A stretch of DNA of 64,000 bases, from the NCBI RefSeq assembly GCF_024139115.2, contig NC_085140.1, forward strand, positions 335,545,099 to 335,609,098, given 5' to 3'. Origin of the DNA: Armigeres subalbatus. Lineage: Eukaryota > Arthropoda > Insecta > Diptera > Culicidae. A model generated the notes under the pieces. The model ran no database searches. It was not told where the DNA came from and worked only from the letters and a program-made list of their open reading frames with translations. Both the position numbers and the translations under genes were made by a program. This document shows, in pieces, positions 6,175 to 64,000 of this stretch; position 1 is the first letter of the stretch; each line of letters begins with the position of its first letter.

Positions 6175-7130
6175 GACCCATGAGAACAAGAACTACTTGG
6201 AATGTAAATATCCCAAGGTGAGATTACACAACTTGTTTATTCTTTAATAACTCCCTAGAGCAAATTACAACAACATGAACTAATTGTAATGCAAACATAT
6301 GTTCCAATATCCTCCCTTTCGGCGGTTGATCTGCAGATCAAAAACAAGAACTATTTGGAATGCAAACATTCACCCAGATGAGGCTGCACAACTTGCTTTT
6401 GCTTCAATTAATGGCTTCATTACGGAGGTTGATCAGCAGGTCTTGACTCTATGAGGTTCGTTGACTACCTTGAATCAATGACACCAATAAGAACTACTCG
6501 GAATGCAATCATATACCAAGAGACGGTCACACAAAGTGTTTAATGTTCCATAAATGCCTCCACTACGGAGGTTGATCCACCGACCGTGACTCTATGATTT
6601 TCATAGACTACCTGGAATCTATAACATCCACAAGAACTACTTGGAGTGGAGTCATAAACAAATATAGGGTCACACAAACTTGTTTATTCTTCAATGAATG
6701 CATCAATTTCAGAGGTTATTCCGCATACCTTGACTCTATGGAGGCTGTTTAGAACCCATGTTACCCTTCCCAAGAAGATCTACTTGGAATAAAAGCATTT
6801 ATCAAGAAGGGTTCACACAACTTGTTAATTCTTGAATAACTGCTTGCGTAGCGCTGGTTGATAAGATGACCTTAACTACTTGGAGCTCGTAGACTACCTG
6901 AAACCTATGATAATAACAAGAACTACTTGGAATGTGATATGTGATTCACATACTAAGAGGTAGTTACACAACTTGTTGATTCTTCAATAAATGCCTTGTT
7001 TATTCTTATAAATAACTCGATTATTCTTCAATAACTGCCTCCATTATGGACGTTGATCCACAGACCTAGAGTCTATGGAGTTTGGAGACTACCTGGAACC
7101 AATGACAACAGCATCAGCGTCGTTGTCATG
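6175..7130 (-). repeat. Satellite A, about 143 bp monomers, minus orientation
   Basis: The phrase aagaactacttggaatg recurs at about 6188, 6347, 6488, 6633, 6773 and 6920, mostly 140-147 bp apart. It is the reverse complement of the array at 17490-20262. The copies here are more diverged from each other than in the main array, with small insertions, suggesting an older or unhomogenised block. Confidence 0.85.
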
Positions 7131-17489: not shown

Positions 17490-20262
17490 CGAAGTGGTAT
17501 TACCTGTTGTCATGGTTTGTAGGTAGTCTACGAACTCCATACATTCAAGGTCTGTTGATTAACCTTCGTATTAGAGGCAGATATTGAAGAATAAACAAGT
17601 TGTGTGACCCCTACTTGGTATATGTTTGTATTCCAAGTAGTTCTTGATGTTGTCACTGATGCCAGGTAGTCTACGAACACCATAGATTCAAGGCCTGGGG
17701 ATCAACCTACATAATGGAGGCAGTTATTCAAAAATAAACAAGTTGTGTGACACCTCCATGGTATATGTTAGTATTCCAAGTAGCTCTTGTTGTTGTCGTG
17801 GGCTCCAGGTGGTCTACAAGCTCCAAAGAGTCAAGGTATGTTGATCAACCTCCGCAATGGAGGCAGCTATTGGAGAATAAACAAGTTGTGTGACCCCTTC
17901 TAGGTATATGTTTGTATTCCAAGTAGTTCTTGTTGTTGTCATTAGTGCCAGGTAGTCGACGAACTCCATAGAGTCAAGGCCAGTGGATCAATTTCCGTAA
18001 TGGAGGCAGTTATTGAAAAATAAACAAGTTGTGTGACCCCTAGTTAGTATATGTTTGTATTTCAAGTAGTTCTTGTTGTTGTCGTGGGCTCCAGGTAGTC
18101 TACAAGCTCCATAGAGTCAAGGTATGTTGATCAACCTCCGCAATGGAGGCAGCTATTGGAGAATAAACAAGTTGTGTGACCCCTTCTAGGTATATGTTTG
18201 TATTTCGAGTAGTTCTTGATGTTGTCACTGATGCTAGCTAGTCTACGAAATCCATAGATTCAAGGCCTGGGGATCAACCTACGTAATGGAGGCAGTTATT
18301 GAAAAAAAACAAGTTGTGTGAACCCTTCTTGGTATATGTTTGTATTGCAAGTTGTTCTTGTCGTTGTCGTGGGCTCCAGGTGTCTACGAACTCCATAGAG
18401 TTAAGGTCTATAGATCAACCTCCGTAATGGAGGCAGCTATTGGAGAATAAACAAGTTGTGTGACCCCTTCTTGGTATATGTTTGTATTCCGAGTAGTTCT
18501 TGTTGTGGTCGTGGGCTCCAGGTAGTGTACGAACTCCATAGAGTCAAGGTTTGTAGATCAACCTCCGAAATGGAGGCAGCTATTGGAGAATGAACAAGTT
18601 GTGTGACCCCTTCTTGGTATATAATTGTATTCCAAGTAATTTTTGTTGTGGTCGTGGGCTCCAGGTAGTCTACGAACTCCACAGAGTCAAGGTCTGTAGA
18701 TCAACCTCCGTAATGGAGGCAGCTGTTTGAGAATAAACAAGTTGTTTGACCCCTTTTTGGTATATGTTTGTACTCCAAGTAGTTTTTGTTGTTGTCATTG
18801 GTGCCAGGTAGTCTACGAACTCCATAGAGTTAAGGCCTGTGGATCAACCTCCGTAATGGAGGCAGTTATTGAAAAATAAACAAGTTATGTGACCCCTTAT
18901 TGGTAAATGTTTGTATTCCAAGTAGTTCTTGGTGTTGTCGTGGGCTCCAGGTAGTCTACGTACTCCATAGAGTCAAGGTCTGTAGATCAACCTCCGTAAT
19001 GGAGGCAGCTATTGGAGAATAAACAAGTTGTTTGACCCCTTTTTAGTATATGTTTGTACTCCAAGTAGTTTTTGTTGTTGTCATTGGTGCCAGGTAGCCT
19101 ACGAACTCCATAGAGTCAAGGCCTGTGGATCAACCTCCGTAATGCAGGCAGTTATTAAAAAATAAACAAGTTGTGTGACTTCTTCTTGATATATGTTTGT
19201 ATTCCAAGTAGTTCTTGATGTTGTCGTGGGCTTCAGGTAGTCTATGAACTCCATAAAATCAAGGTCCATGGGTCAACCTCCGTAATGGAGGCAGCTATTG
19301 AAGAATAAACAAGTTGTGTGACCCCTTTTTGGTATATGTTTGTACTCCAAGTAGTTCTTGTTTTTGTCATTGGTGCCAGGTAGTCTACGAACTTCATTGA
19401 GTCAAGGCCTGTGGATCAACCTCCGTAACGGAGGCAGTTATTTATTGTTATTTATTGAAAAATAAACAAGTTGTGTAACCCCTTCTTGGTTATGTTAGTA
19501 TTCCAAGTAGTTCTTGTTGTTGTCGTGGGCTCCAGGTAGTCTTCAAACTCCATAGAGTCAAGGACTGTGGATCATCTTCCGAAACGGAGGCAGTTATTGA
19601 AGAATAAACAAATTGTGTGTCTTCTTCTTGATATATGTTTGTATTTCGAGTAGTTCTTGTTGTCGTCATGATTTCCAGGTAGGCTACTCCATAGAATCAA
19701 GGTCGGTGGATCAACCTCTTTAATGGAGGCAGTTATTTGAAAACAAATAAGTTGTGTGGCCCCTTCTTGGTATATGCTTGTCTTTAAAGTAGTTCTTTTT
19801 GTTGTCGAGGGCTCCGTAATGGACGTAGTTATTGAGCATTAAACACTTTTTGTGACCCCTTCTTGGTACAGTAATATCCCGATTTTTTCAATCCTAGTAA
19901 ATTTTGGGGGGATGAAATAGAAAAAGGCAAAATACGTGAAAGGAACCCGTAATTTCTTGTCGAACAGGCTTACAAAATTCTTGACAGATTCTCTGTAATT
20001 ATCCATAATAAACCACAGGCGGTGAAAGTTATTTCATGAAATTTATTGTTGTTGTTTAAAAACTTTTGTGGTGATAAAATCGGGTCGAAAACGTGGTAAA
20101 ATCAGGGTCCACAAAATCAGGGTAGACAAAGTCGGAGAATGACAAAATCGGGTAAATACTGTATATGTTCGCATTCCATGTGGTGCATGTTATTGTCATG
20201 GGTTCGAAGTAATCTACGAAATTCGTAGAGTTAGGGCCTGCTGATTAACCTCCGTGATGAAG
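17490..20262 (+). repeat. Satellite A array, ~143 bp monomers in ~286 bp dimers
   Basis: About 17-18 monomers. ataaacaagttgtgtgacc recurs near 17591, 17735, 17876, 18020, 18161, 18305, 18445, 18590, 18731, 18877, 19018, 19163, 19305, 19460 and 19600. Two monomer types alternate: one with attggagaat and the other with attgaaaaat, linked respectively to gtcattggtgccagg-type and gtcgtgggctccagg-type segments. This gives a higher-order dimer. One stretch (about 18370-18680) breaks the alternation. A MITE interrupts the last part (19869-20161). Confidence 0.9.
19869..20161. mobile_element. pogo/Tc1-like MITE inserted in satellite A, 293 bp
   Basis: Terminal inverted repeats cagtaatatcccgatttt (left) and the inverse of aaaatcgggtaaatactg (right). 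TA flanks on both sides (19867-19868 and 20162-20163). The satellite phrase 'ttcttggta|tatgtt' is split exactly at the TA, which proves insertion into the array. No ORF. The ends are pogo-like by eye. Confidence 0.8.
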
Positions 20263-20263
20263 C

Positions 20264-20326
20264 CACCCTCAACATGGTTTTACTTTGTAGCCGCGTGTCT
20301 TACCGCACGGCCAAGGAGGCCCCTAC
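20264..20326 (-). mobile_element. Feilai SINE 5' fragment
   Basis: Reverse complement matches the first ~63 bp of the SINE at 3354 (cctccttggccgtgcggtaa, gctacaaagta..accatg, gagggtggct). It keeps the 5' end and lacks the 3' body, the opposite of normal retrotransposon truncation. It lies exactly at the junction between satellite A and satellite B. Confidence 0.8.
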
Positions 20327-23300
20327 CACAAAGGGCTTGTACCACTTGTTGAGCAATCCGAAAGATCTCTGGTAACGCGTGTAGATCTAAAGAAATATTC
20401 CCAAATTTTCTTGGATGACCATGAATCTATGCAATGGACGCATTCTATTCTATGTACCATAAAGGAGTTGTACCACTTTTGAAACAAGCCGAAAGATCTC
20501 TGGTTACGCGTGTAGCTCTTAAGGCCTATTCCAGGGTTTTCTTGGATGACCATGAACCTATGCAACAGACGCATTCCATTCTATGTACCACAAAGGGGTT
20601 GTACCACTTTCTACACAAGACGAAATATCTCTGGTTACGCGTGTAGATCTTAAGTCCTTTTCAGAGTTTCCTTGGATCATCGTAAACCTATGCAATGGAC
20701 GCATTCTATTCTATGTACCACAAAGGGGTTGTACCACTTTTGAAACAAGCCTAAAGATCTCTGGTTACGCGTGTAGATCTTAAGGCCTTTTCCAGAGTTT
20801 TCTTGGATGACCATGAACATATGCAATGGTTGCATTCTATCCAATGTATCACAAAACAAAGGTCCAAGCTCCAGGAGGTTCCACATGTACCACAAAGGAG
20901 TTGTACCACTGTTGAAACAAGTCGGAAGATCTCTGGTTACGCGTGTAGATCTTAAAGTCTATTCCAGAGTTTTTATGGGAGACTATGAACCTATGCAATG
21001 GACGTATTCTGTTCTATGTGCCACAAAGGGGTTGTACCACTTTTGAAACAAGCCGAAAGAGCTCTGGTTATACGTGTAGATCTTAAGACGAATTCCAGAG
21101 TTTTCTTGGATCATTATGAAACTATGCAATGGACACATTATATTATTTGTACCACAAAGAGGTTGTACCACTTTTGAAACAAGTCGAAAGATATCTGGTT
21201 ACGCGTGTAGATCTTAAGGCGTATTCCAAAGTTTTCTTGGATGACTATGAACCTATGCAATAGACGCATTCCATTCTATGTGCCACAAAGGGGTTATACC
21301 AATTTTTAAACAAGCCGAAAGAGCTCTGGTTACACGTGTAGATCTAAAGGTCTATTCCAGAGTTTTCTTGGATCACCATGAACCTATGCAATGGACGCAT
21401 TCCATTCTATGTACCACAAAGGAGTTGTACCACTTTTGAAACAAGTCGAAAGATCTCTGGTTACGCGTGTAGATCTCAAGGCCTATTCCAAAGTATTCTT
21501 GGGTGACTATGAACCTATGCAATGGACGCATTCTATTCTATGTGCCTCAAAGGGGTTGTATCAATTTTGGAACAAGCCGAAAAAGCTCTGGTTACGCGTG
21601 TAGATCTCAAGGTCTATTCCAGGGTTTTCTTGGATGATCTTGAACCTATGCATTGGACGCATTCTATTATTTGTACCACAAAGGGGTTGCACCACTTTTG
21701 AAACAAGTCGAAAGATCTCTGGTTACGCGTGTAGATCTCAAGGCCTATTCCAAAGTTTTATTGGATCACTGTGAACCTATGCAATGGACGCATTCCATTC
21801 TATGTACCACAAAGGAGTTGTACCACTTTTGAAACAAGCCGAAAGATCTCTGGTTACGCGTGTAGATCTTAAGGCCTATTCCAGGGTTTTCTTGGATGAT
21901 CTTGAATCTATGCATTGGACGCATTCTATTATTTGTACCACAAAGGGGTTGTACCACTTTTGAAACAAGACGAAAGGTCTCTGGTTACGCGTGTAGATCT
22001 TAAGGCATATTCCAAAGTTTTCTTGGATGACTATGAACCTATGCAATTGACGCATTCTATTCTATGTGCCACAAAGGGGTTGTATCAATTTTGAAACAAG
22101 CCGAAATAGCTCTGGTTACGCGTGTAGATCTTAAGGCCTTTTCCAGGGTTTTCTTGGATGGTCATGAACCTATGCAATGCACGCATTTTATTCTATGTGC
22201 CACAAAGGGTTGTACCACTTTTGAAACAAGTCAAAAGATTTCTGGTTACGCGTGTAGATTTTAAGGCATATTCCAGAGTTTTCTTGGATCACCGTGAACC
22301 TATGCAATGGACGCATTCTATTCTATGTACCGCAAAGGGTTGTACTACTTTTGAAACAAAGCCGAAAGATCTTTGGTCACGCGTGTAGATCTTAAGGCCT
22401 TATTTCAGGGTTTTCTTGGATGACCATTAACGTATGTAATGGACGCATTCTGTTCCATGTGCCACAAAGGGTTGTACCACTTTTGAAACAAGTCAAAAGA
22501 TCTCTGGTTACGCGTGTAGATCTTAAGGCCTATTCCAGAGTTTTCTTGGATCACCATGAACCTATGCAATGGACGCATTTTATTCTATGTACCACAAAGG
22601 GGTTGTACCACTTTTGAAACAAGCCGAAAGAGCTCTGGTTACGCGTGTAGCTCTTCAGGCCTATTCCAGGGTTTTCTTGGATGACTATGAACCTATGCAA
22701 TGGACGCATTCCATTCTATGCACCACAAAGGGGTTGTACCACTTTCTAAACAAGACGAAAGGTCTCTGGTTACGCGTGTAGATCTTAGGGTCTATTCCAG
22801 AGTTTTCTTGGATCACCGCGAATCTATGCAATGGACGCATTCTATTCTATGTACCGTTAAGGAGTTGTACCACTTTTGAAACAAGCCGAAAGAGATCTGG
22901 TTACGCGTGTAGCTCTTAAGGCCTATTCCACGGTTTTCTTGGATGACCATGAACCTATGCAATGGACGCATTCCATTCTATGTACCACAAAGGGGTTGTA
23001 CCACTTTCTACACAAGACGGAAGATCTCTGGTTACGCGTGTAGATCTTAAGCCCTTTTCAGAGTTTTCTTGGATCACCGTGAACCTATGCAATGGACGCA
23101 TTCTATTCTATGTACCACAAAGGGGTTGTACCACTTTTGAAACAAGCCGAAAGAGCTCTGGTTACGCGTGTAGCTCTTAAGGCCTATTCCAGGGTTTTCT
23201 TGGATGACTTTGAACCTATGCAATGGACGCATTCCATTCTATGTACCACAAAGAGGTTGTACCACTTTCTGTACAAGCCGAAAGGTCTCTGGTTACGCGT

Positions 23301-23672
23301 GTAGATCTTAAGGCCTATTCCAGAGTTTTCTTGGATAACCGCGAATCTATGCAATGGACGCATTCTATTCTATGTACCTTAAAGGAGTTGTACCACTTTT
23401 GAAACAAGCCGAAAGAGATCTGGTTACGCGTGTAGCTCTTAAGGCCTATTCCAGGGTTTTCTTGGATGACCATGAACCTATGCAATGGACGCATTCCATT
23501 CTATGTACCACAAAGGGGTTGTACCACTTTCTACACAAGACGAAAGATCTCTGGTTACGCGTGTAGATCTTAAGGCCTTTTCCAGAGTTTTCTTGGATGA
23601 CCATGAACATATGCAATGGTTGCATTCTATCCAATGTATCACAAAACAAAGGTCCAAGCTCCAGAAGGTTCT
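20327..23672 (+). repeat. Satellite B array, 131 bp monomers in 262 bp dimers
   Basis: About 25 monomers with ggttacgcgtgtag, ttccagggttttcttgg, atgaacctatgcaatgg, cattctatgtaccacaaagg and ttgtaccacttttgaaac in order. Spacing is 131 bp (for example repeats at 23092, 23223, 23354, 23485). In the right half two types alternate: gtagctctt / agggtttt / cattccatt / ctttctacacaag, and gtagatctt / agagtttt / cattctatt / cttttgaaacaag. That makes a 262 bp dimer. The array is split into two blocks ending in the same special sequence (20808-20883 and 23598-23668). Confidence 0.93.
20808..20883 (+). repeat. Variant terminal unit of satellite B, internal copy
   Basis: Carries atgaacatatgcaatggttg, atccaatgtatcacaaaac and aaaggtccaagctccag, which do not occur in ordinary monomers. 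An almost identical copy closes the array at 23598-23668, about 2,790 bp to the right. Confidence 0.85.
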
Positions 23673-32430: not shown

Positions 32431-32453
32431 CTCACAGGCCTCTAATTACAATT
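32431..32453. repeat. 23 bp direct repeat, left (candidate target duplication)
   Basis: Begins ctcacaggcctctaatta and is identical to 39489-39511. The sequences on either side differ between the two copies. Confidence 0.8.
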
Positions 32454-32830
32454 AGCTTAGCTTAGCTTAGCTTAGACTGACTGTACATATCTATGGTTGC
32501 TACTCCGTGATTGACCAGGATCAGTGAAGTTGCACAATGAATCAATTGAATGTTTAGCTGGGAGTGGCTACAAAATTCTCACTGTGCAAGTTCAGTGACC
32601 CAAACAATATAATGATCAATAACGGCGCCGGCCACGTCCTTACAGTCAGGTAGGAAGCGGGAAGGAATGCTAGTAAGTGAATTTTGCTGCTCGGAGACCG
32701 TGTTTACCTCTGCGTCTCCACAAAAAAACACAGGAAGGATGGTTTGTTAGTGGTAAGGTATCGTTGGATCTGGATTCACTATGATAAGCGATGCGACCAT
32801 AATGAGATATTTAAACGCGTGTGCTTCCGA
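32454..32830 (-). mobile_element. Minus-strand non-LTR 3' end with (GCTAA)n tail
   Basis: The 32454-32475 tail is followed by a GC-balanced block (ctgactgtacatatctatgg, accaggatcagtgaag, ggcgccggccacgtcc) that I associate from memory with the shared 3' ends of I-clade MosquI and Gecko-like elements in Aedes. No ORF survives. The identification is tentative. Confidence 0.4.
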
Positions 32831-33073
32831 TCAACCTTGAGTAACTGTAAAGAAACAAAAAACAAAAAAATATAATAATAATAATAATTACACCTTTTCA
32901 ATTTTTGTTTCGTATTTCTGCACCTACAACAATATAAATATAAATATAAATATATGCATGTATTTTTATGAAAGTAGAGCAAATCGGAATTTTTGATCCT
33001 AATATTCGACTTAATGTAACAATGGAGACCGTAATTGAATTTGGAAAAAAGGGGTTTTCTTATCGTATAAGGT

Positions 33074-33310
33074 GGTATGAGAATTGCGAATGAATAGTTA
33101 GCTTTCACGAGTTCATTCATACTATGACATAAGTTAATTCATGTTTCCATTCACACCAATATATAGCCAGGTATACTGTAGAAGCACAAGGTATAAGAAT
33201 TGCGAGTGAATAATCAGTTTCTACAGTTTCTACGAGTTCATTCATACCATGATATTAGTTGATTCATGTTTCCATTCACACGAATACATAGCCAGGTACA
33301 ATGTGGATGC
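33074..33310 (+). repeat. Tandem duplication upstream of the OTU-LINE (about 116 bp units)
   Basis: The series ggtat(g/a)agaattgcg, gaatgaatag, cacgagttcattcata, catgtttccattcacac and atagccaggta occurs twice (from 33074 and from 33190), with a partial third start near 33300. The second unit has about 10 extra bases. The position just 5' of the coding region suggests 5' UTR monomers, as some LINEs use for promoter activity. Confidence 0.7.
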
Positions 33311-33461
33311 ACAAGCAGAGAGGAGAGAAATACTTTATTTCGCCACACAACGCCAGGTCAAATTTTTCGAAGATTTTTCAGCTACCTAGTTCACAGCAAT
33401 TATTTCTTGTTCCTGTCACATATACAGTTTCTTTTTGCGTACGACAGTCATCATATTTGAG

Positions 33462-33520
33462 GTATGTAAGAAATCATCAAAAAAAATCTTGTAATATTAT
33501 AACACAATAGTATCTTATAG
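33462..33520 (+). other. Candidate 5' UTR intron (59 bp)
   Basis: Starts gtatgtaag and ends tatcttatag, three bases before the ATG at 33524. Size and borders fit short insect introns. It lies outside the coding frame, so there is no frame test, and an earlier acceptor at 33510 is possible. Confidence 0.5.
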
Positions 33521-33523
33521 ATT

Positions 33524-34140
33524 ATGTCTGTAGATCAAATCGAGGATGACAAAGGCACTCGCTTCTGGGTTCTGCGTATTCCAGGGGACGGTGATTGTCT
33601 CTTTGGATCGGTAGTTCACCAGGTATATGGTGTAACACCTACCCATCATTTATTTCGGCATTATAAGCGACAGCTGAGAGAAGCAGCAGTGAATGAGATT
33701 ATGGAGAATTTTGAATTATATGCCGATCAACTTGTAATATTTGCTGAAGAATCCATTCAAGAGAATTCGTCAATGGAAGTCAAGGTTCGTAAATATCTTG
33801 AAAATATGTGGAGTGATGGTGTATGGGTCGGTGCCGACACCATAGTTGCACTTTGCAATTCTAGACCAACATTTGAAAAGGTGTAACAGCCAAAATTTAT
33901 TCCTTCTGATTCTTCGGCTACCTATAAAGCTATATATGTGGACAAAGAATCAGAAGGAATAAATTTTGGCTGTTACCCCCTTTTCAAATGTTAGTCTAGA
34001 ATTGTCCCCAAATAGCCATTACGGTATACCAAGACAACGGAAAAATCGAATTTACTCCAACACGATCCGAAAACGAGGAGTGGCCGTCCTATAAGATTTT
34101 TTCCGGGATGTCATAAATGGGATCCGCACTCATTACGACA
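33524..34140 (+). pseudogene. OTU cysteine-protease domain 1 of the retrotransposon (disrupted)
   Basis: OTU proteases cleave ubiquitin-type isopeptide bonds. From the ATG at 33524 the product shows IPGDGDCLFGSVVHQVYG at residues 19-36: the catalytic DGDC motif with Cys25. After about 100 residues comes VWVGADTIVALC, matching the central OTU segment. The domain resumes after a MITE with ITVYQDNGKIEF and ends with GIRTHYDSV, where the His (34131-34133) fits the catalytic base. Two lesions break it: the MITE (33863-33995) and loss of one T in the run at 34097-34102. With these ignored, all key OTU positions are present, so the protein was probably active when the element moved. What it deubiquitinates, if anything, is unknown. 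Confidence 0.8.
33863..33995. mobile_element. Palindromic TA-target MITE inside the OTU domain
   Basis: gaccaacatttgaaaagg, cagccaaaatttattcc and ttctgattctt on the left are inverted on the right. The target was probably the palindrome caattctagaattg, split at its central TA, which makes the inverted repeat appear to extend over 33856-34004. A half copy of the same family lies at 46497-46577. Confidence 0.75.
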
Positions 34141-34745
34141 GTGTATTGTGTTTCCGACCACAAGAGCTGCCATCTTTTGAACTTGACAATCTAGAGACAT
34201 ATAACGTCATGCTCTATAATTCAACTACCAATGTAACTGCTGTACAAGTTGGCAATGTAGATCAATCTATATTTACTGCGATACATCATCAACTGACACG
34301 TAAGATACCAACTGAGGACGAATTAAACATCTATCGGGGACTAGTTGCGAGTGAACTTGAAAACCAATCAGATACTTTCTTGAGGTCTTTTGAATTCCAC
34401 CGCGATGTGAGTCTGATTTCGATACCTATCTGTTTCGTTTGCGGATTGGTCGACATGATGGCGGCTTTGTATCCTTATCTCTAATGTCATCGCTCTTTAA
34501 AGTTAAAGTTTATATCCATAGTACATCTAAGATCACCAATCGGCTTGAGCCTATCGCTTGTGGAGGAAGGGTTGTACTTCATATTCTAGACCAAGAGCTA
34601 GATACACACAGTATATACTCCAGCGTAGTATCTCTTGAGCATCTGCATAGCACTGTACCCTCTCGACCATGTCGAAGGTTTATGCCGGACGCTATGGCTA
34701 TTGCAGCGAAGATAGCTCGAAAAGAAGAATCATCTTCCCAGGACA
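34141..34745 (+). pseudogene. Second OTU-like domain, catalytically degenerate
   Basis: After a short linker (LPSFELDNLETYNVMLYNS) a second OTU-like fold begins: VGNVDQSIFTAIHHQLTR replaces the expected DGDCLF block, so the nucleophile Cys is absent (Ser in its place). The downstream order is as in domain 1: ELNIYRGLVASELENQ, then FDTYLFRLRIGRHDGGF, SLSLMSSLFKVKVYIHS and a final HSIYSSV. An insertion of two bases near 34405-34409 shifts the frame between FHRD and ESDFDTYLF. The tandem active plus inactive arrangement suggests the second copy became a binding or structural module. The OTU relation rests on motif order only, so confidence is moderate. Confidence 0.6.
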
Positions 34746-35630
34746 CTGTTCACTCTGACGTTCCTGCTATCACAGCGCATGGAATCCGATTAGCTTCTCT
34801 GAATGTTAATGGTTGTCGAGCGAAAGCCAAGCGAGATGCAATAGATGCGTATTTGCTATCTAAAAGTGTACATATAGCAGCCCTGCAGGAAGCTAATCTT
34901 GATTGCGTGTATTGCCTAACCGCTAATTATAAATGGTATATGGGAGCAACTTCTGGTAATCGTAAACGCGGTCTAGCCATTCTAATACGGATCGGTTTAG
35001 ATGTACAGCAACCAACTACCAAGAATTTTGGATTTGGTATACAATATTTGAAGCTAACTTACAAGGTATAATTACATGATATTGCTATATTTGCTATCAG
35101 AAATTTATTAAACTATTTATAGGTTGACACCACTTCCCTCATACTGCAAATTATAAATGTTCATGGACCAAACGAAAACGCAGATAGCTTTTTTGCTGAT
35201 CTAGGTGGGGTAGTAGGTGGACTAAACCAAACAGACAATGTGATTATTATTGGCGATTTCAATAGCCATTAGAGCTGTCATGGGCTAAGTTTTGAGGAAT
35301 CTGCCTTAATTGGTAAATACGCTGGCTACGAACAATTTAATTCAAATGGCTTACAGATGAAGCTGTTTGTGGGATTATACTCTTTTGCTGTACGGAGTAC
35401 TCATGCGGTGGCGAATTCTGGATTTAAGTGGACATGGACAAATGGCCGGACTAAAACTCAGGTTGACCACATTCTGACTCACGCCAGATCCAGATTATTT
35501 TTGAAGCGGCTTCAGTGTACAACACCAAACGTAATATCCACTGACCATAAGATTTTGCTTTGTAGCATTGTGGCGAATCGGTCAGCTATGCACACTCAAC
35601 CAAATCAAAGCCGGAGGTTTAATCATCGAA
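34746..35630 (+). pseudogene. APE-type endonuclease domain of the OTU-LINE
   Basis: AP-endonuclease-like domains of non-LTR elements nick the target DNA. Here LASLNVNGCRAKAK begins near 34790 with the conserved Asn, then AALQEANLD has the catalytic Glu near 34890. After the intron at 35066-35122 come INVHGPN and IIIGDFNSH (35244-35269) with the Asp and Asn. KTQVDHIL and STDHKILL follow, with the final Asp-His near 35540. All active-site blocks are present. One nonsense codon (TAG at 35270-35272) directly follows GDFNSH. The frame across the spliced intron is continuous. Confidence 0.85.
35066..35122 (+). other. GT-AG intron in the APE domain (57 bp)
   Basis: acaag|gtataat ... tatttatag|gttgac. 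Splicing joins LKLTYK to VDTTSLILQIINVHGP in one frame. Read unspliced, a TAA stop comes at once (35069-35071). 57 bp is a usual mosquito intron size. Confidence 0.8.
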
Positions 35631-36659
35631 GTGTTCCAGTCGATCCTTCTCTCCTCAAAAATGATGTTGTGAAGCAAAATTTTATAAAAGAATTAGGTAA
35701 AAGTCGACTTTCAGTGGATTCAACAGCATCTATAAACGATCAGTGGAAAGGGCTGCGACAAAAACTACATCACGCCGCTGAGACCGTACTAAAAAAGCCC
35801 ATGCACTTCTTGGTTAATCGGGAATGTAGGAGAGCTCTCGCTAAGGTTAAAAAGTATTCGTTTTGGGTGAGCAGATCGATGAACCCCAAATGGCGCTACC
35901 GATTGATGGAAGCAAAGCAGGAATTACGGAGGGCACAACGCGAATACAAGGAGAAGCAAGTGGAAGAATTCTTCAAAGACTTACAGAAGTATCCAGCCGG
36001 GGAGCGGATAAACCGAACGTTCCGGTACCTAAAAAGATATAAGAAGAGCAAAACTAACTCCAAGCGTGGGAGAAGGATTCGCTTGAGTGATTGGCTGATT
36101 GATGCGGGCAATTCAAGTCAAATACCGAGTGACTTACCCGAATTAGTAAGTGAGGAGTTGCATGCTGGTCCTACCCTAGAGGAAATCAAATCAATAATAA
36201 TTCGGATGAAAAATGGTAAAGTTCCCGGAGTCGACGGTCTTCATACCGAGTTTTTCAAGTATTACGATGAGAATACTATAGGAGAGTTACATCAACTGTT
36301 GTCGAGAGTTTGGGAGCGTAACGAATTACCAGAAGAGTGGAAACATGTAGTAGTAGTGCCGATTCCGAAAACAAAGGATCCAAAAACTGTCGGTGACTTC
36401 CGTCGGATCTGTTTAAGTTGTACAGGGTACAAAGTGTATGCAAGCTGGATTCTGGAGAAGCTCCAGAATATTATCGGTCCACTAGGAACCCATCAGGCAG
36501 CTTTTTTGCACGGTAGATCTACCACGGACCACCTCTTTGTTCTTCAAAGAGTTTTACAGGAGTACTGGAATGAAGGGAAGCCGTTGGTTTTGATGTCGTT
36601 GGACATTGAGAAGGCATTTGATACCGTTTCTCTAGAGTCATTGCCTGCTATATTACGAG

Positions 36660-36746
36660 GTAATTTATTATATAAGCAAACTGTTAATCTCTTTAACTGA
36701 AATGAAGCCCGACTTTTTTGTAAGACGTTTTATTTTGTTGTTTTAG
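36660..36746 (+). other. GT-AG intron in the RT domain (87 bp)
   Basis: ttacgag|gtaattt ... ttgttttag|ttagagg. Splicing gives LPAILRVRGAPINFINRVL in one frame between RT motif blocks. Unspliced reading ends at a TGA at 36698-36700. The intron is phase 1, with a T-rich acceptor tract. Confidence 0.85.
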
Positions 36747-37787
36747 TTAGAGGAGCCCCAATAAACTTTATTAACCGTGTTCTCCAATGCCTAAGAGGGG
36801 AGCATATGCAGGTACTCTGGGAGGGCCAAATGACACGTCCGATGCTTCGTAATAAGGGGATTAAGCAAGGGTGCCCATTATCGCCCTTTATTTTCAATTT
36901 GATTATGGATGCTGTGTTAGAGTCTGCGGCCGAAGAAGTGAATTTGCGGCTCAATCAGGAAGGACGTTTAACGTTACCCATGATACTGGCATTCGCGGAT
37001 GACCTGATTATAATAGCCGAAACTATTGAAGATATTGAGGAAATAATTAATAAGCTAACCGAATATCTATCCTATGTTGGGCTTTCGCTTAATGAGAATA
37101 AGTGCAAAGTACTAATTCGGGAGCCGCGATCTGAAGCTATATCAGAAGTCGTAATCTGTGGGAAAACGTATAAGACCACAGAACCATTACGATACCTCGG
37201 AGTACATTTGACGGCCAGACTAGAGCGTCCACAAACTGTGCGAGCAAGATGTAAGAATGCTGTTAAAGTGACCCAAGCAATCATGCAATTTTTAAGAAAG
37301 TACAACCCATCTTGGCAGATAGGTCGAACAATCTATGAGACTGTGATTGCACCTGCGATGTTATATGGGACGCAAGTGGCCATACTTACAAAATATAGTA
37401 GAAAATCACTAAGAGGGTACGAAAAACAGATAGTTAAAGGGATGTCCAGCCTATGTCGCGATGCTGAAATAAGCAACCAGTCCGTTAACAGGTTATTGCA
37501 AAAAAGAAGGATCACCAAGAAAGTTCGCATGTACCAAATGAGGTGGTGGGGCCATGTTCGTCGTCGTCCGAGATCTCATCCAACACGTGCTGCTGCTCGT
37601 TTAAAAGCCACGAAACTTCGACCCTGTCGACCAGGTTTCACTTGGTGGGATTGCATTCAACAAAATATCAGTCACTATGGCGATTTAAATTATGCGGAGT
37701 GGAAAGAATTAGCTAATGACCGTGATAAATTTCATAAAAAATTACTGGACATTTACGATCGAGATGAGTCCGATTGCAGTGATTGGG

Positions 37788-37860
37788 GTAAGTTATAGGT
37801 TCAATGTTCGGAGAGTTCTACTCAGCAAAACCCAACATAATGTGAATTTTTTCATTCTAG
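37788..37860 (+). other. GT-AG intron at the 3' end of the OTU-LINE frame (73 bp)
   Basis: gattggg|gtaagtta ... ttcattctag|aatcc. The donor is a perfect consensus. Spliced, the frame reads DCSDWESLPDTS and stops at 37881-37883. Unspliced it stops at 37796-37798, losing only a few residues. Confidence 0.7.
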
Positions 37861-37883
37861 AATCCTTGCCTGACACATCGTAG

Positions 37884-39488
37884 TGAATATGGGAGAACAA
37901 CACATACCGTTGAAATAGTAAATGAATGTGGGGGAAATAACAGCGTTTAAGATATGAGATATTTGTTTGATTATATGTTTAAGAAATAAAATAGATAAGG
38001 TATTGTTTGTTCCACCAATCCCATTTTGTTTACATATTCGTCAAATTGATACAATTCTTACGATTCAGCATAATGTCATTGTACTTCACTTAAATAAGAA
38101 AATACAAACAAGAAACTCACCTTGTAAATCCTTACCTATCTTTACCTATGAGGCTGCGCATAGTACCACCACCCAAAGTTCGAGCGGTGCCGAAATTTGT
38201 TTATTAGGTTCTGCAGCGTCTGTATCTAACCTCAAACTGATGACTGATTAGTAGTACTTCGCGTTGGACTTGGGGGCAGCCAACCAATCACGAACTCGAT
38301 CCTTGTCGGAGTCAGTGGAAAGTACCACTGAACTGTCAAAAGAGTTCATTCGACGAGGACCGAATTCATTCGTGACGTCATGCTGCAGAACCTGATAACA
38401 CATTTGAAATGAACCATATACGTCAATGAGAGTTCATTCCGACGTCGCTCAAGCTCCGACAGCTAACCCACGCACGTCCCACAGCTTGAATGGAGCAATT
38501 TGTAATACACATCCTACCTACACATACACATTCACCGTTGTCATACACTCCAATTGCGTTTTCCCAAAATTTTCATGCAACTTTATTACGTACCTTCGCA
38601 TCTATGCATACATACCGACCCTCTATAGAATCCTATAAGACTACCGTTTACCACACCACCAACACACACCGGTAAAGTCAAACCGGATGAACGGGATGAA
38701 CACTCATGTAACAGTGTTGACAGGTGCATCAATTGATGGTAAAATTTCTTGTTTTTGGAATGGTGAAGGGGATAATATTATTCGATATATCCAATTCTGG
38801 AGGTACGAACTTGTTTGTTCTATCAAATACGATCGCAATTAAAAAAAATTATATTGTAGTTACGTAACGGAGCACAATATAGAATAGATGTATGCATATA
38901 TATATATATATATATTTTTTTTTTTCAAGTAATGCACTAAAACATTATCTCTATTGAACCGGACACTTTATTAACTGGAATCACTGCAAACATAAAAAGT
39001 GTTTCTTCCAAGCAAGGTCATTCAATGCATATCGATTCACTACTATGGATACACATCATATGCACTTTCCACAATCTCGCCAAACGCCAATACTCCAGTC
39101 ACATCCAATCTACAATACAAGCATAGATCCATATAATTGTCGACCGATTCCGCTATCATCCGCACACCACCGAAGCTCGTGCCTGCGCCGTGTACTCATT
39201 TTTCCTACATATACATACACACTTCCTCAATCTCAACCCACGTTAACGCTGATCTGCTGATCAAGCTGCGGCAAGCCGCTGATACCATGCAGAAAAGATT
39301 AATTTTCTCCACCTTCCACTGGAAAGATCACACATATTTCATGACACACCACTAACGCCTTCTATAATAATCACTTCAAACATCCTACACTTAATTTATC
39401 TTGATCTAAAACCAATTTTATTCGCTATTTAAACCACACGAGAAAGAAAATCAAACGCGACGCTTGGCAGTGCTCTCAGTGGAAAGTT
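37884..39488. other. 3' flank of the OTU-LINE and right part of the 7 kb insertion
   Basis: No coding region recognised. 38890-38930 is an AT microsatellite followed by a T run. cctacctacacatacacattc-type phrases recur at 38510-38545 and 39205-39230. 39300-39488 could be the 5' UTR of a minus-strand element ending at 39488 (inference from the 23 bp duplication). The OTU-LINE 3' end could not be placed. Confidence 0.35.
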
Positions 39489-39511
39489 CTCACAGGCCTC
39501 TAATTACAATT
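39489..39511. repeat. 23 bp direct repeat, right (candidate target duplication)
   Basis: Identical to 32431-32453. Confidence 0.8.
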
Positions 39512-45590: not shown

Positions 45591-46496
45591 TATTAAACGA
45601 AGCACATTGATCTTGCGTTGGATTGATTTGAAACACAGTTTTCGTCTTCTTGTTTTCAAAATAACTTCGTTTACAATAAATATTTAGTCGCTTACCAAGG
45701 GGCTTCACATGAATTACCTTCTCAACTAACCAACGATTCCTTTTCCGTAGCGCTCACGGAGATGCAGAGCATACCTCGGTCTCTTAAAACAAAGAGTGTT
45801 ACACTAATTTTCGTCTCCTAATACTAAATTGACTATAAGCACCGTTATTGACCAGCATCGTTATTGTTCATAAATTGCAAACTCCGAAGCAAGTATACAA
45901 TAAGAATAACTTTTTTGTGTCCCAAGAATAGGGGAAGAGGTTCGGTTGTGGGCACCCTTTTGTCTTTTGTCTAGTTGATCTCATGCCGACATTTGTATAC
46001 CAATGGAAAGCTAGACTGTGTACCTTTTTTCAATCAATTATGTCTAAATTATTATAAAAAACGGCATGAAAACGTCATTTGAAATAAGTTAGGGAGCAAC
46101 TAAAATGATGTTGAATGATTTGTTAATAAAATAAGGGTGCCCACAACCGAATTTCGCAGCCGTTTTGGAAAACGAAGAAAAAAATGCATATTTGCTGTTT
46201 CTCGGCCAATCATGATTAGCAACTACGACGTGTACAGTTAAGAAACGTTATTAAGCTCTTCTTCAACTATTTGCACAATATGTGAGGAACATTGCAGATT
46301 TGTGGGCATTTCTAGATCTACGCATGAAATTTGCAAAAAAAAATCAAGAACGGGTTGAAAGATCATTAAAATTGCTGAAAATTCTTTACTTATGATTGCT
46401 TTTAGCACATACTGACCAATGATCAGTGACCATAACAGCTGTTCTCATCTGCCAAGGACATGTATATAAGACTATCGGTCTGTGAAATGCACATGA

Positions 46497-46577
46497 TTCT
46501 TCTTGTGAGCAAATGTATGCTATATATGTAGACGAGGAATAAGAAGGAATAAATTTTGGCAAACATACCCTTTTCAA
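46497..46577. mobile_element. Half copy of the palindromic TA MITE
   Basis: gctatatatgtagac, agaaggaataaattttgg and cccttttcaaatgtt match the right half of 33863-33995. The left half is replaced by unrelated sequence. Confidence 0.65.
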
Positions 46578-46827
46578 ATGTTGATCTAGTAATATCAATT
46601 CTATATCTGCGTATACGCCTGGCAGATGTGGATACATAGTTAAGTATCCCACTAAATAAAACAATAAATTTAAAGCATTCGTTTTGAAATTTTGACTAAG
46701 TCAATACTGTAGAACCACGCTGACAAGATAATATGAAGTATGCTTCAGCATAATTACATAATTCTTAAGTGAACTAAGGTTTTGAACGAAATTTGAATCC
46801 GTATATGAAAAATCCCACAATTTCTTT

Positions 46828-56419: not shown

Positions 56420-57300
56420 TATATAAGATTCTTCTCCATTCGGCTTGGGCCATGGCTACACCTCGCCAACCACGCAGCCAACGGAGGGTCCGCAAGACAT
56501 CTTCCACCTGATCGATCCACCTTGCCTTCTTGTGCCCGTCGGATCGTTGTCGAGAACCATTTTCACCGGGTTACTGTCCGACATTCTGGCTACATGCCCG
56601 GACCACCGCAGTCGTCCGATTTTCGCGGTAGAACGATGGATGGTTCTCTCAGCAGCTCATGCAACTCGTGGTTCATTCGTCTCCCAAGTACACAAATTCT
56701 TCAACCACTTCGATTTCGTCACCATCGATGCAAACTCGCGCTGGGTGGCTCACGTTGTTTTCATGTACTTCGTCTTGGACGTGTTGATGACTAGTCCAAT
56801 CCGTTTAGCTTCCCTCTTCAGTCTGATGTAGACTTTCTCCATCTTCTCAAAGTTACGTGCCATAATATCTATGTTATCGGCGAAGCCAAGTAGCTGGACG
56901 GGCTTATTAATCCCTACTCTTCGTAATACCCCTTCCAAAGCGATGTTGAATAGCAGACACGAAAGACCATCACCTTGCCGTAACCCTCTGCGCATTTCAA
57001 AGGGACTCGAGATTGCCCCTGAAATTCTAACTATGCACATCACCCGATTCATCGTCGCCTCGATCAACCGTATCATTTTATCCAGAAATCCGCGTTCGTG
57101 CATTAGCTGCCATAGCTGGTCCCGATCGATTGTATCATATGCGAATTTTGAAGTCGATGAATGGATGATGCGTGGGCACGTTGTACCTATTCGCGGCATT
57201 CCTGCAGTACTTGGCGAATGGCGAACACCTGGTCCGTGGTGGAGCGTTTGCCCATAAAACCCGCCTGGTACTGCCCCACGAACTCCGATAAATATATATG
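56420..57300 (-). pseudogene. LINE family 1 RT and C-terminal remnant, minus strand
   Basis: From about 57300 downward: sequence equivalent to the GFMGKRSTTDQVFAIRQVLQ block in broken frames, then YDTIDRDQLWQLMHERGF, RRGLRQGDGLSCLLFNIAL, QLLGFADNIDIMARNFEKM and GLVINTSKTKYM. The catalytic FADD box is FADN here, which should abolish polymerisation. The C-terminal part (around 56640-56420) carries GRLRWSGHVARM and RWIDQVE-like motifs in decayed form. Same family as 13480-15115 and 61488-64000. Confidence 0.8.
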
Positions 57301-60169: not shown

Positions 60170-61275
60170 GACGAGGTTAAAAGGCTCTAAACGAGCTGGA
60201 AAACAGTAAAGCTTCTGGGAAGGACGAGCTCCCGGTCAAGCTTCTCAAACACGGAAGTGAGCAGCTGCATCAATCAATCCACCACATTATCCAGACAAAA
60301 TGGAAGGATGAAGAACTGCTTGCCGGCTGGTTGGATGGCCTCATATGCCCAATCTATAAGAAAGGGCACAGTCTGTGTGTGCCAATTCCAATTGCCAGTC
60401 TGTGTGTGGACACAGAGTGTGCCAATTACAGAGGGATCACCGTTGTGAACTCGGCGTACAAAATCCTGTCATGATGGCCGATCAACGACGGATGTTTAGC
60501 CTGCGGATGATCCTTGATATATTTCGAGAGTACAACTTGCAGACTCACCATCTGTTCATTAATTTCAAAGCAGCGTACGATTCAGTGAAGAGATATGAGC
60601 TGTGGCAGATAATGTCCGAACATGGTCGGACGAAGTGTCAGCCTCGTTTGTGACCTTAGACGGATTGAAGCAGGGTGATGCACTTTAGAATTTATTGTTC
60701 AACATTGCACTCGAAGGCGCTATTCGGAGATCTGGCGTGCAGAAGAACGGCACTATCATCACACGGTCGCATATGCTCCTGGGCTTTGCGGACGACATAG
60801 TCCTTATTGGAATCGATCGCCGAGCAGTAGTGGAGGCTTTTGCCCCACTGATGAGGGGGACGGCGAGGAAAGCCTTAACCATTAACTTGCTCTATACAAA
60901 TATCTGATTCTACCAGTGGCTTTTTATGGACATGAAGCATGGACGTTGAAAGAGGCGGACCGGAGAGCTTTCGGGGTTTTCTAGCGAAAAGTGCTGCGCA
61001 TGAATCATGAGCTTGTAAGTATACAAAGAAGAAAATATTGTGAATCGTATAAAATACGGCAGACTTCAGTGGACTGGTCACTTAGTGCGAAGTTCGGAAG
61101 AAAGAATAGTGAAAACAATGTTTATCAGAGAACCAGATAGGGGCCGACGATTTCGCGGCGACCGCTGGCTGCACGCGGTGGAATCTAACCTGGTGATCCT
61201 GAACGTTCGGCGAAACTGGAGGAACATCGCCCAAGACCGACGATTATGGAGCTCTACAATATGCCAGGCATAGGT
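60170..61275 (+). pseudogene. LINE family 3 RT remnant, plus strand
   Basis: ALNELENSKASGKDELPVKL, LDGLICPIYKKGH and CANYRGITVVNSAYKILS give the first RT blocks in one frame (60180-60470). After a stop and frameshift come FINFKAAYDSVKRYELWQI, a QGDAL block and LLFNIALEGAIRRSG, then LLGFADDIVLIGIDRRAVV with FADD intact (60790 region). The C-terminal part reads FYGHEAWTLKEADRRAFGV (60930 region) and GRLQWTGHLVRSSEERIV (61055 region). At least four frame breaks. About 60 codons between the RT and tail are missing. Confidence 0.75.
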
Positions 61276-61424
61276 GTATCGATGCTGTAGCCAATCAGGT
61301 ATCCATGTAGGTAATTCTAGAATTTTTAAAAGTAGGTTTAACTATTTACAAATTCCTTTCTACGTACAATCTCAGTTTTTACATTTCTGGTTTTTACGAT
61401 TGCTTAAAATATTAAACAGGTTTT

Positions 61425-61487
61425 CATGTGATTCGTTACTTGGGCTCACTGGTGACCGCCGATAACGATACCAGCAGAGAAATTCGG
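61425..61487 (+). pseudogene. LINE family 1 C-terminal scrap
   Basis: RYLGSLVTADNDTSREIRG matches the YLGSLLMANHSGSREI block at 14735. It is cut directly by the 5' UTR of the next LINE at about 61488, which looks like one family-1 element inserted into another. Confidence 0.65.
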
Positions 61488-61736
61488 GGGCAGCAGGGAC
61501 TATGTCCAAGGGCTTGACGATCCCTCCCCAGGCCATCTGCGAGTTGTGGTGCCTGCCTGGGATGTGGTGGGGTTTGACAGTGGGCCCTGTTAAGCCTCTA
61601 TAAAAAGCTGCATGTATCCGCAAGTAGGCTCCGCCAAAGCGACCGTGTGCCGCTCAAAGCGCACAAGCTCAAGTCCTGGTGTTAGGTGGGACGCTAAACA
61701 GCCCTGACACGACGGCCTTCCGACGAGACAGGAGGT

Positions 61737-62849
61737 TTGCGCAGGCCCAATAAGCCGCCTTTAAAAACAACCATTACGAACGACATAGAAGATAATACGA
61801 CTCGATACAATCGGCAACGACCTAGGCGACGAATAAAGGATCACGATTGGAAGCTTGGAACATGGAACTGCAAGTCGCTAGGCTTCGCAGGTTGCGACAG
61901 GATAATCTACGATGAATTACATCCCCGCAACTTCGATGTCGTAGCGCTGCAGGAAATCTGCTGGACAGGACAGAAAGTGTGGAAAAGCGGGCATCGAGCG
62001 GCTACCTTCTACCAAAGCTGTGGCACCACCAACGAGCTGGGAACCGGCTTCATAGTGTTGGGAAAGATGCGCCAACGCGTGATTGGGTGGCAGCCAATCA
62101 ACGCAAGGATGTGCAAGCTGAGGATAAAAGGCCGTTTCTTCAACTATAGCATCATCAACGTGCACTGCCCACACGAAGGGAGATCCGACGACGAGAAAGA
62201 AGCGTTCTATGCGCAGCTGGAGCAGACATACGATGGATGCCCACTGCGGGACGTCAAAATCGTCATCGGTGACATGAACGCTCAGGTAGGAAGGGAGGAA
62301 ATGTATAGACCGGTCATCGGACCGGATAGTCTGCATACCATATCGAACGACAACGGTCAACGATGCATAAACTTTGCAGCCTCCCGCGGAATGGTAGTCC
62401 GAAGCATTTTCTTCCCCCGCAAGAATATCCACAAGGCCACATGGAAATCACCTAATCAAGTAACGGAAAACCAAATCGACCACGTTCTAATCGACGGTAA
62501 ATTCTTCTCCGACATCACGAACGTACGCACTTACCGCAGTGCGAATATTGAATCCGACCACTACCTCGTTGCAGTATGTCTGCGCTCAAAACTCTCGACG
62601 GTGATCAACACGCGTCGGAGTCATCCGCCGCGGCTAAACATTGGGCGGCTGCAAGACGGTAGACTAGCCCAAGACTACGCGCAGCAGCTGGAAGTGGCAC
62701 TCCCAACGGAAGAGCAGCTAGGCGCAGCATCTCTTGAAGATGGCTGGAGAGATATTCGATCCGCCATTGGAAGCACCGCAACCGCTGCACTAGGCACGGT
62801 GGCTCCGGATCAGAGAAACGACTGGTATGACGGCGAATGTGAGCAGTAA
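61737..62849 (+). pseudogene. LINE family 1 APE endonuclease domain
   Basis: The nicking endonuclease of the element. Near residues 38-80: KLGTWNCKSLGFAGCDRI with the conserved Asn, then FDVVALQEICWTGQKVWKSG with the catalytic Glu. Then NELGTGFIVLGKM, INVHCPHEGRSDDEKEAFY and VKIVIGDMNAQVG with the Asp-Asn. ENQIDHVLIDG and SANIESDHYLVAV bring the final Asp-His. All active-site blocks are intact. A TAA at 62847-62849 (after NDWYDGECEQ) ends the frame, but the same frame continues beyond it as VEEKNAAWARLLQHR, so it is a nonsense mutation. No good ATG is visible at the start, so the true start is uncertain. Confidence 0.85.
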
Positions 62850-63245
62850 GTTGAGGAGAAGAATGCAGCATGGGCGAGATTGCTGCAACACCGCACGAGG
62901 GAGAACGAGGCACGATACAAACGGGCGCGAAACAGACAAAACTCGATTTTCCGGAGGAAAAAGCGTCAGCAGGAAGATCGAGACCGTGAAGAGACGGAGG
63001 AACTGTACCGCGCTAAAAACACACGAAAGTTCTATGAGAAGTTGAACCGTTCACGTAAGGGCCACGTGCCACAGCCCGATATGTGCAAGGACATAAACGG
63101 GAACCTTCTTACAAACGAGCGTGAGGTGATCCAAAGGTGGCGGCAGCACTACGAAGAGCACCTGAATGGCGATGTGGCAGACAATGGTGGTGGTATGGAG
63201 ACGAACCTAAGAACACGCGTGTAGGACATCCGACTTCCGGCTCCG
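62850..63245 (+). pseudogene. LINE family 1 linker between endonuclease and RT
   Basis: Continues the frame: basic and probably coiled-coil (RENEARYKRARNRQNSIFRR, then KKRQQEDRDREETEELYR), then KFYEKLNRSRKGHVPQP and IQRWRQHYEEHLNGD. A TAG follows at 63222-63224. The WRQHYEEHLN block is the usual sign just upstream of RT in such LINEs. Confidence 0.75.
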
Positions 63246-64000
63246 AATCTCCAGGTAATCCAGGAGGAGATCAGCCCGCTGAAAAACAACAAAGCCCTGA
63301 GAGTTGACCAACTACCAGGAGAGCTGTTTAAACACGCTGCACTGGGTAATTACCAAGGTTTGGGAGAATGAGGTTCTGCCGCGGGAGTGGATGGAAGGTG
63401 TCGTGTGTCCCATCTACAAAAATAGCGATAAGCTGGATTGCAGCAACTACCACGCATCATATCTCTGAACGCCGCCTACGCCCTCCCAAATTTCATGCTG
63501 CCGACTAACACCAATTGCAAGAGAGTTCGTGGGGCAGTACCAGATGGGATTTATGGGTGAACGCTCTACCACAGACCAGGTGTTCGCCATACGTCAGGTA
63601 TTGCAGAAATGCCGCGAATACAACGTGCCCTCACATCATCTATTTATCGACTTCAAAGCCGCATATGATACAATCGATCGGGACCAGCTATGGCAGCTAA
63701 TGCACGAAAACGGATTTCCGGATAAACTGATACGGTTGATCAAGGCGACGATGGATCGGGTGATGCGCGTAGTTCGAGTTTCAGGGGCATTCTCGAGTCC
63801 CTTCGAAACGCGTAGAGGGTTACGGCAAGGTGATGGTCTTTCGTGTCTGCTATTCAACATCGCTTTGGAGGGAGTAATACGAAGGGCAGGGATTGACACG
63901 AGTGGTACGATTTTCACGAAGTCCGTCCAGTTATTTGGTTTCGCCGACGACATTGATATCATGGCACGTAACTTTGAGAGGGTGAAGGAAGCCTACATCA
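63246..64000 (+). pseudogene. LINE family 1 reverse transcriptase, 3' part outside the window
   Basis: The early blocks (ISPLKNNKAL, then a broken WEN/VCPIYKNSDKLDCSNY segment) have frameshifts at about 63340 and 63460. From 63520 one open frame reads FVGQYQMGFMGERSTTDQVF, FIDFKAAYDTIDRDQLWQL, RRGLRQGDGLSCLLFNIAL and FGFADDIDIMARNFERVKEA, with an intact FADD box (about 63940). The protein continues past 64000, so the C-terminal region cannot be judged. Confidence 0.85.

Follow-up and report, generated by a model that had tools for sequence, protein, structure and literature searches.

The window analysed here, a 64,000-nucleotide stretch of the Armigeres subalbatus genome (contig NC_085140.1), contains what is probably a now dead APE-type non-LTR retrotransposon of two-strand design. 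Its plus strand carries a gene for an OTU-APE-RT protein interrupted by three segments that comparison of copies identifies as spliceosomal-type introns, and the RNA that is copied in this family appears to be antisense to the RT gene. Introns are expected to be erased by retrotransposition, and searches of the open-access literature showed no APE-type LINE reported to have introns or an antisense template. An APE-type family that keeps its introns, together with evidence at the DNA level for an antisense template, offers a testable mechanism; if this is true, the enzyme of a LINE is not bound to its own mRNA and a selfish element can gain and keep introns.

Insertion and dispersal of the element

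In the window the element forms a 7,035-bp insertion (32454-39488, assigned to the minus strand as that of the inferred template RNA) bounded by identical 23-bp target-site duplications on the left (32431-32453) and right (39489-39511). Its homology to three near-identical copies (L009, L010 and L027) begins at 32452-32463. These four copies lie on two chromosomes, and each has its own perfect target duplication of 19-23 bp and all three introns. In all, 127 matches are spread over three chromosomes and small contigs. Fifteen relatives are flanked by target duplications of 15-30 bp. Exact duplications of this length were found at 16 of the 25 loci whose ends were examined, and in the chance control a 15-mer was common to 1 of 320 shuffled pairs. 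Where several direct repeats were present (L015, L016, L017, L022, L023 and L028) the one adjoining the tail was chosen; L017 has a longer repeat than the chosen one, L023 has three others as long, and the outer 257 bp of L023 have no match to L022. Copies cleanly truncated at the end away from the tail are L009, L028 (compared with L022) and L041, the last retaining approximately 300 bp at the tail end within a 14-bp duplication. Variable target duplications, a 3' tail and truncation opposite the tail are thus all features of the family, which is a mobile element and not a host gene.

Coding region of the window copy

Coding exon 1 (33524-35065, plus strand) encodes an OTU domain (PF02338, E 1.5e-10), a linker and the start of the APE endonuclease (PF03372, E 1.3e-4). 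In the window copy this exon is disrupted by frame changes and by an insertion, a palindrome in the OTU part (33861-33999) that is missing from L009, L010 and L027. A related palindrome lies elsewhere in the window at 46494-46589. Exon 2 (35123-36659, plus strand) contains the remainder of the APE domain and the first part of the RT, exon 3 (36747-37787, plus strand) the remaining RT with its FADD motif (RVT_1, E 4.1e-20) and a C-terminal part, and exon 4 (37861-37883, plus strand) terminates in ESLPDTS and a stop. PF03372 was matched in two pieces of the window, both slightly below the curated cut-off, which is exceeded in P0014 and P0001. A second OTU-like domain had been suggested by eye; it gave no Pfam match, and confidence in the predicted model of P0014 is low over this region (residues 168-355). 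Approximately 100 nt downstream of the stop is an AATAAA (37985-37990, plus strand), a possible mRNA poly(A) signal that recurs 99-127 nt past the stop in L009, L010, L027, L011 and L013, a recurrence counted without a chance control. Beyond it lies a second private insertion (38205-38394), also missing from L009, L010 and L027.

The protein shows signs of constraint. Among five antisense families of subclade A pN is 0.25-0.30, and between L022 and L024 it is 0.15, with synonymous sites saturated in both comparisons. Near copies give dN/dS values of 0.07-0.71, which in part reflect decay.

Introns in the RT gene

The original prediction placed short GT...AG segments at 35066-35122, 36660-36746 and 37788-37860, and each does begin with GT and end with AG. 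All are on the plus strand. Intron 1 has 57 nt and phase 0; intron 2 has 87 nt and phase 1 and separates the RT stretches LDIEKAFD and GIKQGCPLSP; intron 3 has 73 nt and phase 1. That their retention would bring early stops also holds: the frame from 34439 to 37890 contains seven stops, five of them within the segments (35069, 35120, 36698, 37796 and 37838). The stop at 35270, in the APE domain, is a true nonsense codon, and the seventh, at 37871, is met further along if the frame is read unspliced. A+T content is 66-81% in the segments compared with 57-58% in the exons. When the 253 GTs were ranked with a splice-donor matrix, the donors of introns 1, 2 and 3 ranked 26, 3 and 1. Frame-restoring GT...AG pairs spaced 45-129 nt were enumerated for introns 1 and 2 and for an ordinary nonsense codon as a control, giving one, six and five pairs respectively. 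Evidence of this kind from a single sequence is weak, and it is the comparison of copies that decides.

Alignment of copies at the intron positions, as had been proposed, puts the intron 2 donor at an identical position in all 20 loci (the window and L009-L027). The acceptor AG is present in 18 of these; it is lost in L023, and in L024 it falls beyond the stretch examined. A further 20 short samples comprised 12 with intron 2 (the acceptor being altered in L058), three intronless relatives and five that were unreadable. Intron sequences are unrelated between subfamilies, and introns 1 and 3 are markers of one subclade. The claim that removal of each segment joins conserved protein blocks was too strong for intron 3, where only seven residues are gained; this intron rests on its presence in all 11 subclade-A copies read. 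Of 23 unannotated database ORFs, 20 have G or R where they run on past the donor site, in keeping with what G|GT or C|GT demands. With GT...AG ends, fixed position and diverged sequence, and with the acceptors of L023 and L058 as exceptions, sequence comparison confirms the three segments as introns of spliceosomal type. A fourth candidate, preceding the ATG (33462-33520, plus strand), has the second-ranked donor and is kept in L009, L010 and L027; it is not clear in six other loci and is unproven as a 5'-UTR intron.

Polarity of the copied RNA

A 5-bp repeat of variable number (32454-32475; AGCTT on the plus strand) is the putative 3' tail of a minus-strand template RNA, and the number of repeats differs between the window copy, L009, L010 and L027. 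The tail forms part of a conserved, structured 3' module (32454-32798, minus strand), recognised by identity between families and by a covarying fold. Families of one subclade show 68-82% identity in the module over 52-349 nt; comparison of subclades A and B gave no more than a 36-nt BLAST match. It is also common to high-copy short relatives. The right end (38874-39474, minus strand), which would be the 5' part of the template, has three copies genome-wide, and the left end has 41 among the matches listed and 2,192 first-look candidates.

Thirteen copies of the intron clade have a duplication, and in 12 of them the repeat tail is found upstream of the ORF and on the opposite strand, so that the copied RNA would not carry the enzyme gene in sense orientation. 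L011 and L014 have the tail module upstream of the ORF without a duplication. All ten oriented copies of subclade A are antisense (L012 and L025 were not oriented; overall this applied to 5 of 25 loci). No ORF of more than 130 aa was found on the template strand in ten elements. In three intronless relatives the layout is the ordinary sense one, as it is in L020, L021 and L026, three copies from two families that keep intron 2. In L020 and L021 the 3' module is downstream of the ORF; L026 has a 21-bp duplication, a downstream tail and truncation on the upstream side of its ORF. Reading of the tree suggests that orientation has switched at least twice.

The covarying structure of the module favours the minus strand. 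The consensus fold of nine families, optimised on the minus strand that it favours, has an energy of -26.9 kcal/mol there and -11.6 kcal/mol on the plus strand, and its minus-strand pairs include 42 G-U cells as against 5 A-C cells. The plus strand also folds better than shuffles (z of -6.7, compared with -19.8), and seven of the nine single sequences have the lower energy on the plus strand.

Proposed mechanism and alternatives

It may be proposed that the plus-strand mRNA is spliced, perhaps ending near the AATAAA at 37985, and translated into the OTU-APE-RT protein. A separate full-length minus-strand RNA, bearing the 3' module but devoid of long ORFs and of splice sites at the intron positions, would be recognised in trans by this protein and copied by target-primed reverse transcription. 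Introns would survive each round of copying because the template is antisense and splice sites are absent from it. In the small subclade of L020, L021 and L026 unspliced sense RNA would be copied instead; intron 2 is kept in these sense copies, and antisense copying is therefore neither the only route nor necessary for retention. Taken as a whole the antisense-template explanation is, on the sequence evidence, a likely one. With somewhat less assurance, the family may be thought to represent an ambisense class of LINEs in which the coding region has been flipped at least twice relative to the RNA 3' signal and the enzyme acts in trans on antisense RNA, the gene thus being free to acquire introns, with intron 2 preceding 1 and 3, and to keep them through many rounds of retrotransposition.

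The intron-containing gene could alternatively be a passenger in non-autonomous antisense units, with the enzyme supplied by a sense-oriented element that has the same 3' end. Sense L021 and L026 do share the module with antisense L022 and L024 (73-79% over 136-150 nt), and the high-copy relatives with this 3' end make copying in trans likely within the family; against this, the protein is under selection in the antisense families and every oriented subclade-A copy is antisense, and we regard the idea as unlikely. Still less probable is a template of unspliced sense pre-mRNA throughout. The layout of L026, with that of L020 and L021, is what this would produce, but the 12 other duplications have the tail at the other end, and for the window family four insertions contradict it. 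Of the two options in the original prediction, mobilisation of unspliced RNA was right in outcome; an antisense RNA had not been considered there, and an unspliced sense template seems to apply to that small subclade only. The suggestion of a host-like, exapted gene with ordinary introns finds an echo in NCBI gene models in Culex, Aedes, Wyeomyia and Topomyia, but a single locus lacking target duplications is not what is seen: matches are dispersed, some are truncated, and the four near-identical insertions at different sites refute it, leaving it hardly any credence. Equally little can be given to chance GT...AG pairs in a decayed copy; the control nonsense codon shows that such pairs arise readily, but intron positions are conserved across diverged copies.

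Other readings were dropped. The 345-bp matches to the left end were considered as a SINE, but the seven sampled (L033-L039) share sequence beyond 345 bp, and two of them, followed further, enter a tandem array of approximately 96-bp units; target duplications were sought for these and for L040 and L042, and none was convincing. An inverted (twin-primed) origin of L026 is argued against by L020, which runs colinear with L026 and shares its 3' end. Exact tracking of orientation by introns is contradicted by L020, L021 and L026. No confirmed relative was found in the DNA of viral_contigs and genome_contigs.

Relationship to known elements

The element shares with APE-type LINEs the APE endonuclease, the RT, target duplications, a repeat or poly(A) tail and truncation opposite the tail, and may stand near RTE-like clades. 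It differs from them in its spliceosomal-type introns in the RT gene, its N-terminal OTU domain and a template RNA that appears antisense to that gene. SINE-LINE pairs share a 3' end, and here too short relatives bear the same 3' module, although on the strand opposite the enzyme gene.

In one account (PMC3846280), Penelope-like elements are set against all other retrotransposon types on intron retention, and an antisense template is proposed for them. Dispersed intron-containing copies are common to both systems. Penelope-like elements have a GIY-YIG endonuclease in place of APE, and no GIY-YIG domain was found in a Pfam scan of six window pieces that detected APE and RVT_1. Terminal repeats are likewise absent here, with no repeat of at least 25 bp joining the element ends. 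In contrast to Penelope-like elements, it is the side of the tail itself that points to an antisense template in the present family.

Mobility and damage of the window copy

A Pfam scan of the window region showed coding sequence for three domains: OTU, AP-like endonuclease (APE) and reverse transcriptase (RT). The OTU part of this copy is disrupted by a palindromic insertion (33861-33999, with a related palindrome at 46494-46589) and by frame changes, and a nonsense codon at 35270 is a further break. A 190-bp insertion (38205-38394) is private to the window copy. Between OTU and APE, 34200-34700 resembles by eye a second, degenerate OTU domain, which we regard as a candidate. Named protein relatives come from Culex, Aedes, Wyeomyia and Topomyia. 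In the Culex pipiens gene model P0010 an RT of this family is joined to a PF00521 domain, which we take to be a topoisomerase family; this joining is perhaps an annotation artefact.

When the window copy was compared with three related genomic loci (L009, L010 and L027), the shared unit was found to begin at 32452-32463 and each of the four sites carried its own perfect duplication (23, 23, 19 and 22 bp), with a 5-bp repeat in variable number at the gene-upstream end. This confirmed a mobile element, and the suggestion of the original prediction that this may be a host-like, exapted gene was not borne out.

Introns in the RT gene

GT...AG introns had been predicted at 35066-35122, 36660-36746 and 37788-37860 (introns 1, 2 and 3). 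The case from the window sequence by itself was suggestive only, because an ordinary nonsense codon taken as a control likewise has five frame-restoring GT...AG pairs. A protein search with exon 3 in the 1.336 Gb assembly, which has three chromosome-size contigs, returned at least 127 matches, spread over small contigs as well as all three chromosomes (best candidates scored, intronless relatives included), and 20 loci (L009-L028) were picked by score for reading. The intron 2 donor occupied the identical place in 20/20 loci read (the window and L009-L027; L028 is without exon 2), and 18 of them show the acceptor AG, which is lost in L023 and lies outside the stretch read for L024. Introns read complete measured 51-203 nt, the longest containing insertions. 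Among 20 further short samples intron 2 was present in 12 (with an altered acceptor in L058), three were intronless relatives (L046, L047, L062) and five were unreadable at this point (L044, L048, L050, L051, L057). The prediction of introns in the RT gene of a non-LTR element is thus upheld, and at the DNA level the introns are confirmed. Introns 1 and 3, present in 11/11 copies read of subclade A (the window, L009-L017, L027), are absent from the subclade-B copies read (intron 1 from 5/5 read by eye, L018 and L021-L024; intron 3 from 8/8, L018-L024 and L026), and intronless relatives exist. Between subfamilies intron sequences appear unrelated.

The unannotated protein P0014 (60% identity over 39% of the query in the search; 48% in the alignment) has an open frame across intron 1, which contributes ~23 residues, and terminates within intron 2; the two introns sit where they do in the window. 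In its AlphaFold model (mean pLDDT 69, pTM 0.39) a low-confidence segment (465-483), flanked by two confident strands, coincides with the intron-1-derived peptide. The 28 proteins listed for the intron 2 site comprise 23 unannotated ORFs and five NCBI models. Twenty of the ORFs run on beyond the site, 16 with G and four with R, the residues demanded by G|GT or C|GT; 19 of these end within 32 residues past it, in a set biased toward such endings since the query alignment ended there and candidates were length-limited, and P0208 passes through the entire intron. Of the remaining three ORFs, P0214 stops before the site, P0015 stops at it but with other residues, and P0215 is uninterrupted. Among the NCBI models, P0210 stops at the site and the other four (P0001, P0005, P0010, P0213) extend across it.

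Phylogeny and selection

In a first tree of 54 exon 3 rows, a branch (99/97; 0/500 shuffles as low) separates 14 uninterrupted rows, including the gene model P0006, from the other 40, of which seven were labelled intron-bearing, five are gene models or close to them and 28 had no state. A second tree (37 rows) grouped the intron-bearing copies as a single clade (100/98) made up of A (100/99) and B (100/99). Between families synonymous sites are saturated and pN is 0.12-0.30 in A and 0.14-0.32 in B; selection therefore acted on the protein for a long period during which the gene already had introns. Values of dN/dS between near-identical pairs (0.07-0.71) point to partial decay on recent branches.

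Polarity of the copied RNA

When a copy is made by target-primed reverse transcription, its tail shows where the 3' end of the RNA lay, and truncation occurs on the side of the RNA 5' end. L009 is shortened at the end opposite its repeat tail, and a tail-like repeat adjoins the duplication on the same gene-upstream side in L013, L015, L016, L017, L022, L023, L024 and L028; where several direct repeats were listed (L015, L016, L017, L022, L023, L028) the tail-abutting one was chosen, the alternatives including a longer one in L017 and three equally long others in L023. The right end of L028 is 590 bp shorter than that of L022, and L041 keeps ~300 bp at the tail end within a 14-bp duplication. 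From the sides of tail and truncation we infer that the copied RNA is antisense to the RT gene. The template strand of 10 antisense elements has no ORF >130 aa from ATG; by raw count, 9/10 antisense copies checked (L015 is the exception) have a hexamer resembling a poly(A) signal no more than 500 nt past the RT stop.

Three intronless relatives have the usual layout, with the tail downstream of the ORF (poly(A) in L030 and L031, a repeat in L032). Duplications were found in 16/25 loci examined, 12 antisense and four sense (L026, L030-L032); four more show a tail module without duplication, upstream in L011 and L014 and downstream in L020 and L021. Orientation counts rest on these 20 loci, L012, L018, L019, L025 and L029 having no assigned orientation. 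Among the copies with duplications, introns were read in 11 antisense loci (the twelfth, L028, is without the exon 2-3 junction) and intron 2 in L026; L030-L032 are intronless.

The module beside the tail (32454-32798 in the window) is 68-82% identical over 52-349 nt among families within one subclade, with a single 36-nt BLAST match between A and B. That of antisense L022/L024 is homologous to that of sense L021/L026 (73-79% over 136-150 nt); judged by this alignment, these copies share the RNA end, with the gene flipped. For nine families the template strand gave a consensus fold of -26.9 kcal/mol, with two-sided changes at 24 of its 34 pairs and with 42 G-U against 5 A-C cells at the template-strand pairs; the other strand gave -11.1 to -11.6 kcal/mol, and column-shuffled controls averaged -1.2 on either (z -19.8 and -6.7), for a structure optimised on the favoured strand from nine sequences. 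Against a strand bias, 7/9 single sequences have lower energy on the strand opposite the template. Taken together, the tail side, truncation side, flipped module homology and strand-biased structure in DNA make an antisense template for the window's family quite probable, our confidence being slightly reduced because the L023 truncation is not clean (its outer 257 bp are without match to L022) and the A and B modules are weakly alignable.

High-copy relatives (L033-L039, L063, L064) have the same 345-bp 3' end; a search for target duplications there found none, and two traced further enter a tandem array of ~96-bp units. In L019 a 94-bp piece within the exon 2 region (5924-6017) matches the 3' end of L024 at 94% identity and may reflect the insertion of one element into another.

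Since L020, L021 and L026 (21-bp duplication) keep intron 2 in sense layout, orientation and introns are strongly but not exclusively linked. L021 and L026 differ by a pN of 0.175 with synonymous sites saturated, so intron 2 may have persisted over a long period with no antisense template. As we read the 37-row tree, with rows without orientation left out, orientation switched at least twice; a tool count that treated rows without orientation and reference rows as further states gave six changes for antisense and three for sense.

Comparison with Penelope elements and other features

In PMC3846280, dispersal of intron-containing genes sets Penelope elements apart from 'all other retrotransposon types', and an antisense template is proposed for them. 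The window's APE-type family would resemble them in both respects, its template being deduced from DNA. We found no report of introns or an antisense template in APE-type LINEs in the open-access literature, and passages from PMC11167929 and PMC7728395 do not treat this point.

Elsewhere in the window, tandem arrays with periods of ~143 and ~131 bp occupy 17505-19815, 20324-23645 and 6339-7113, the first matching the last in inverted orientation. Further RT-like stretches at 56762-57279 (reverse strand) and 60187-63990 (forward strand) are 24-52% identical to the family's proteins.
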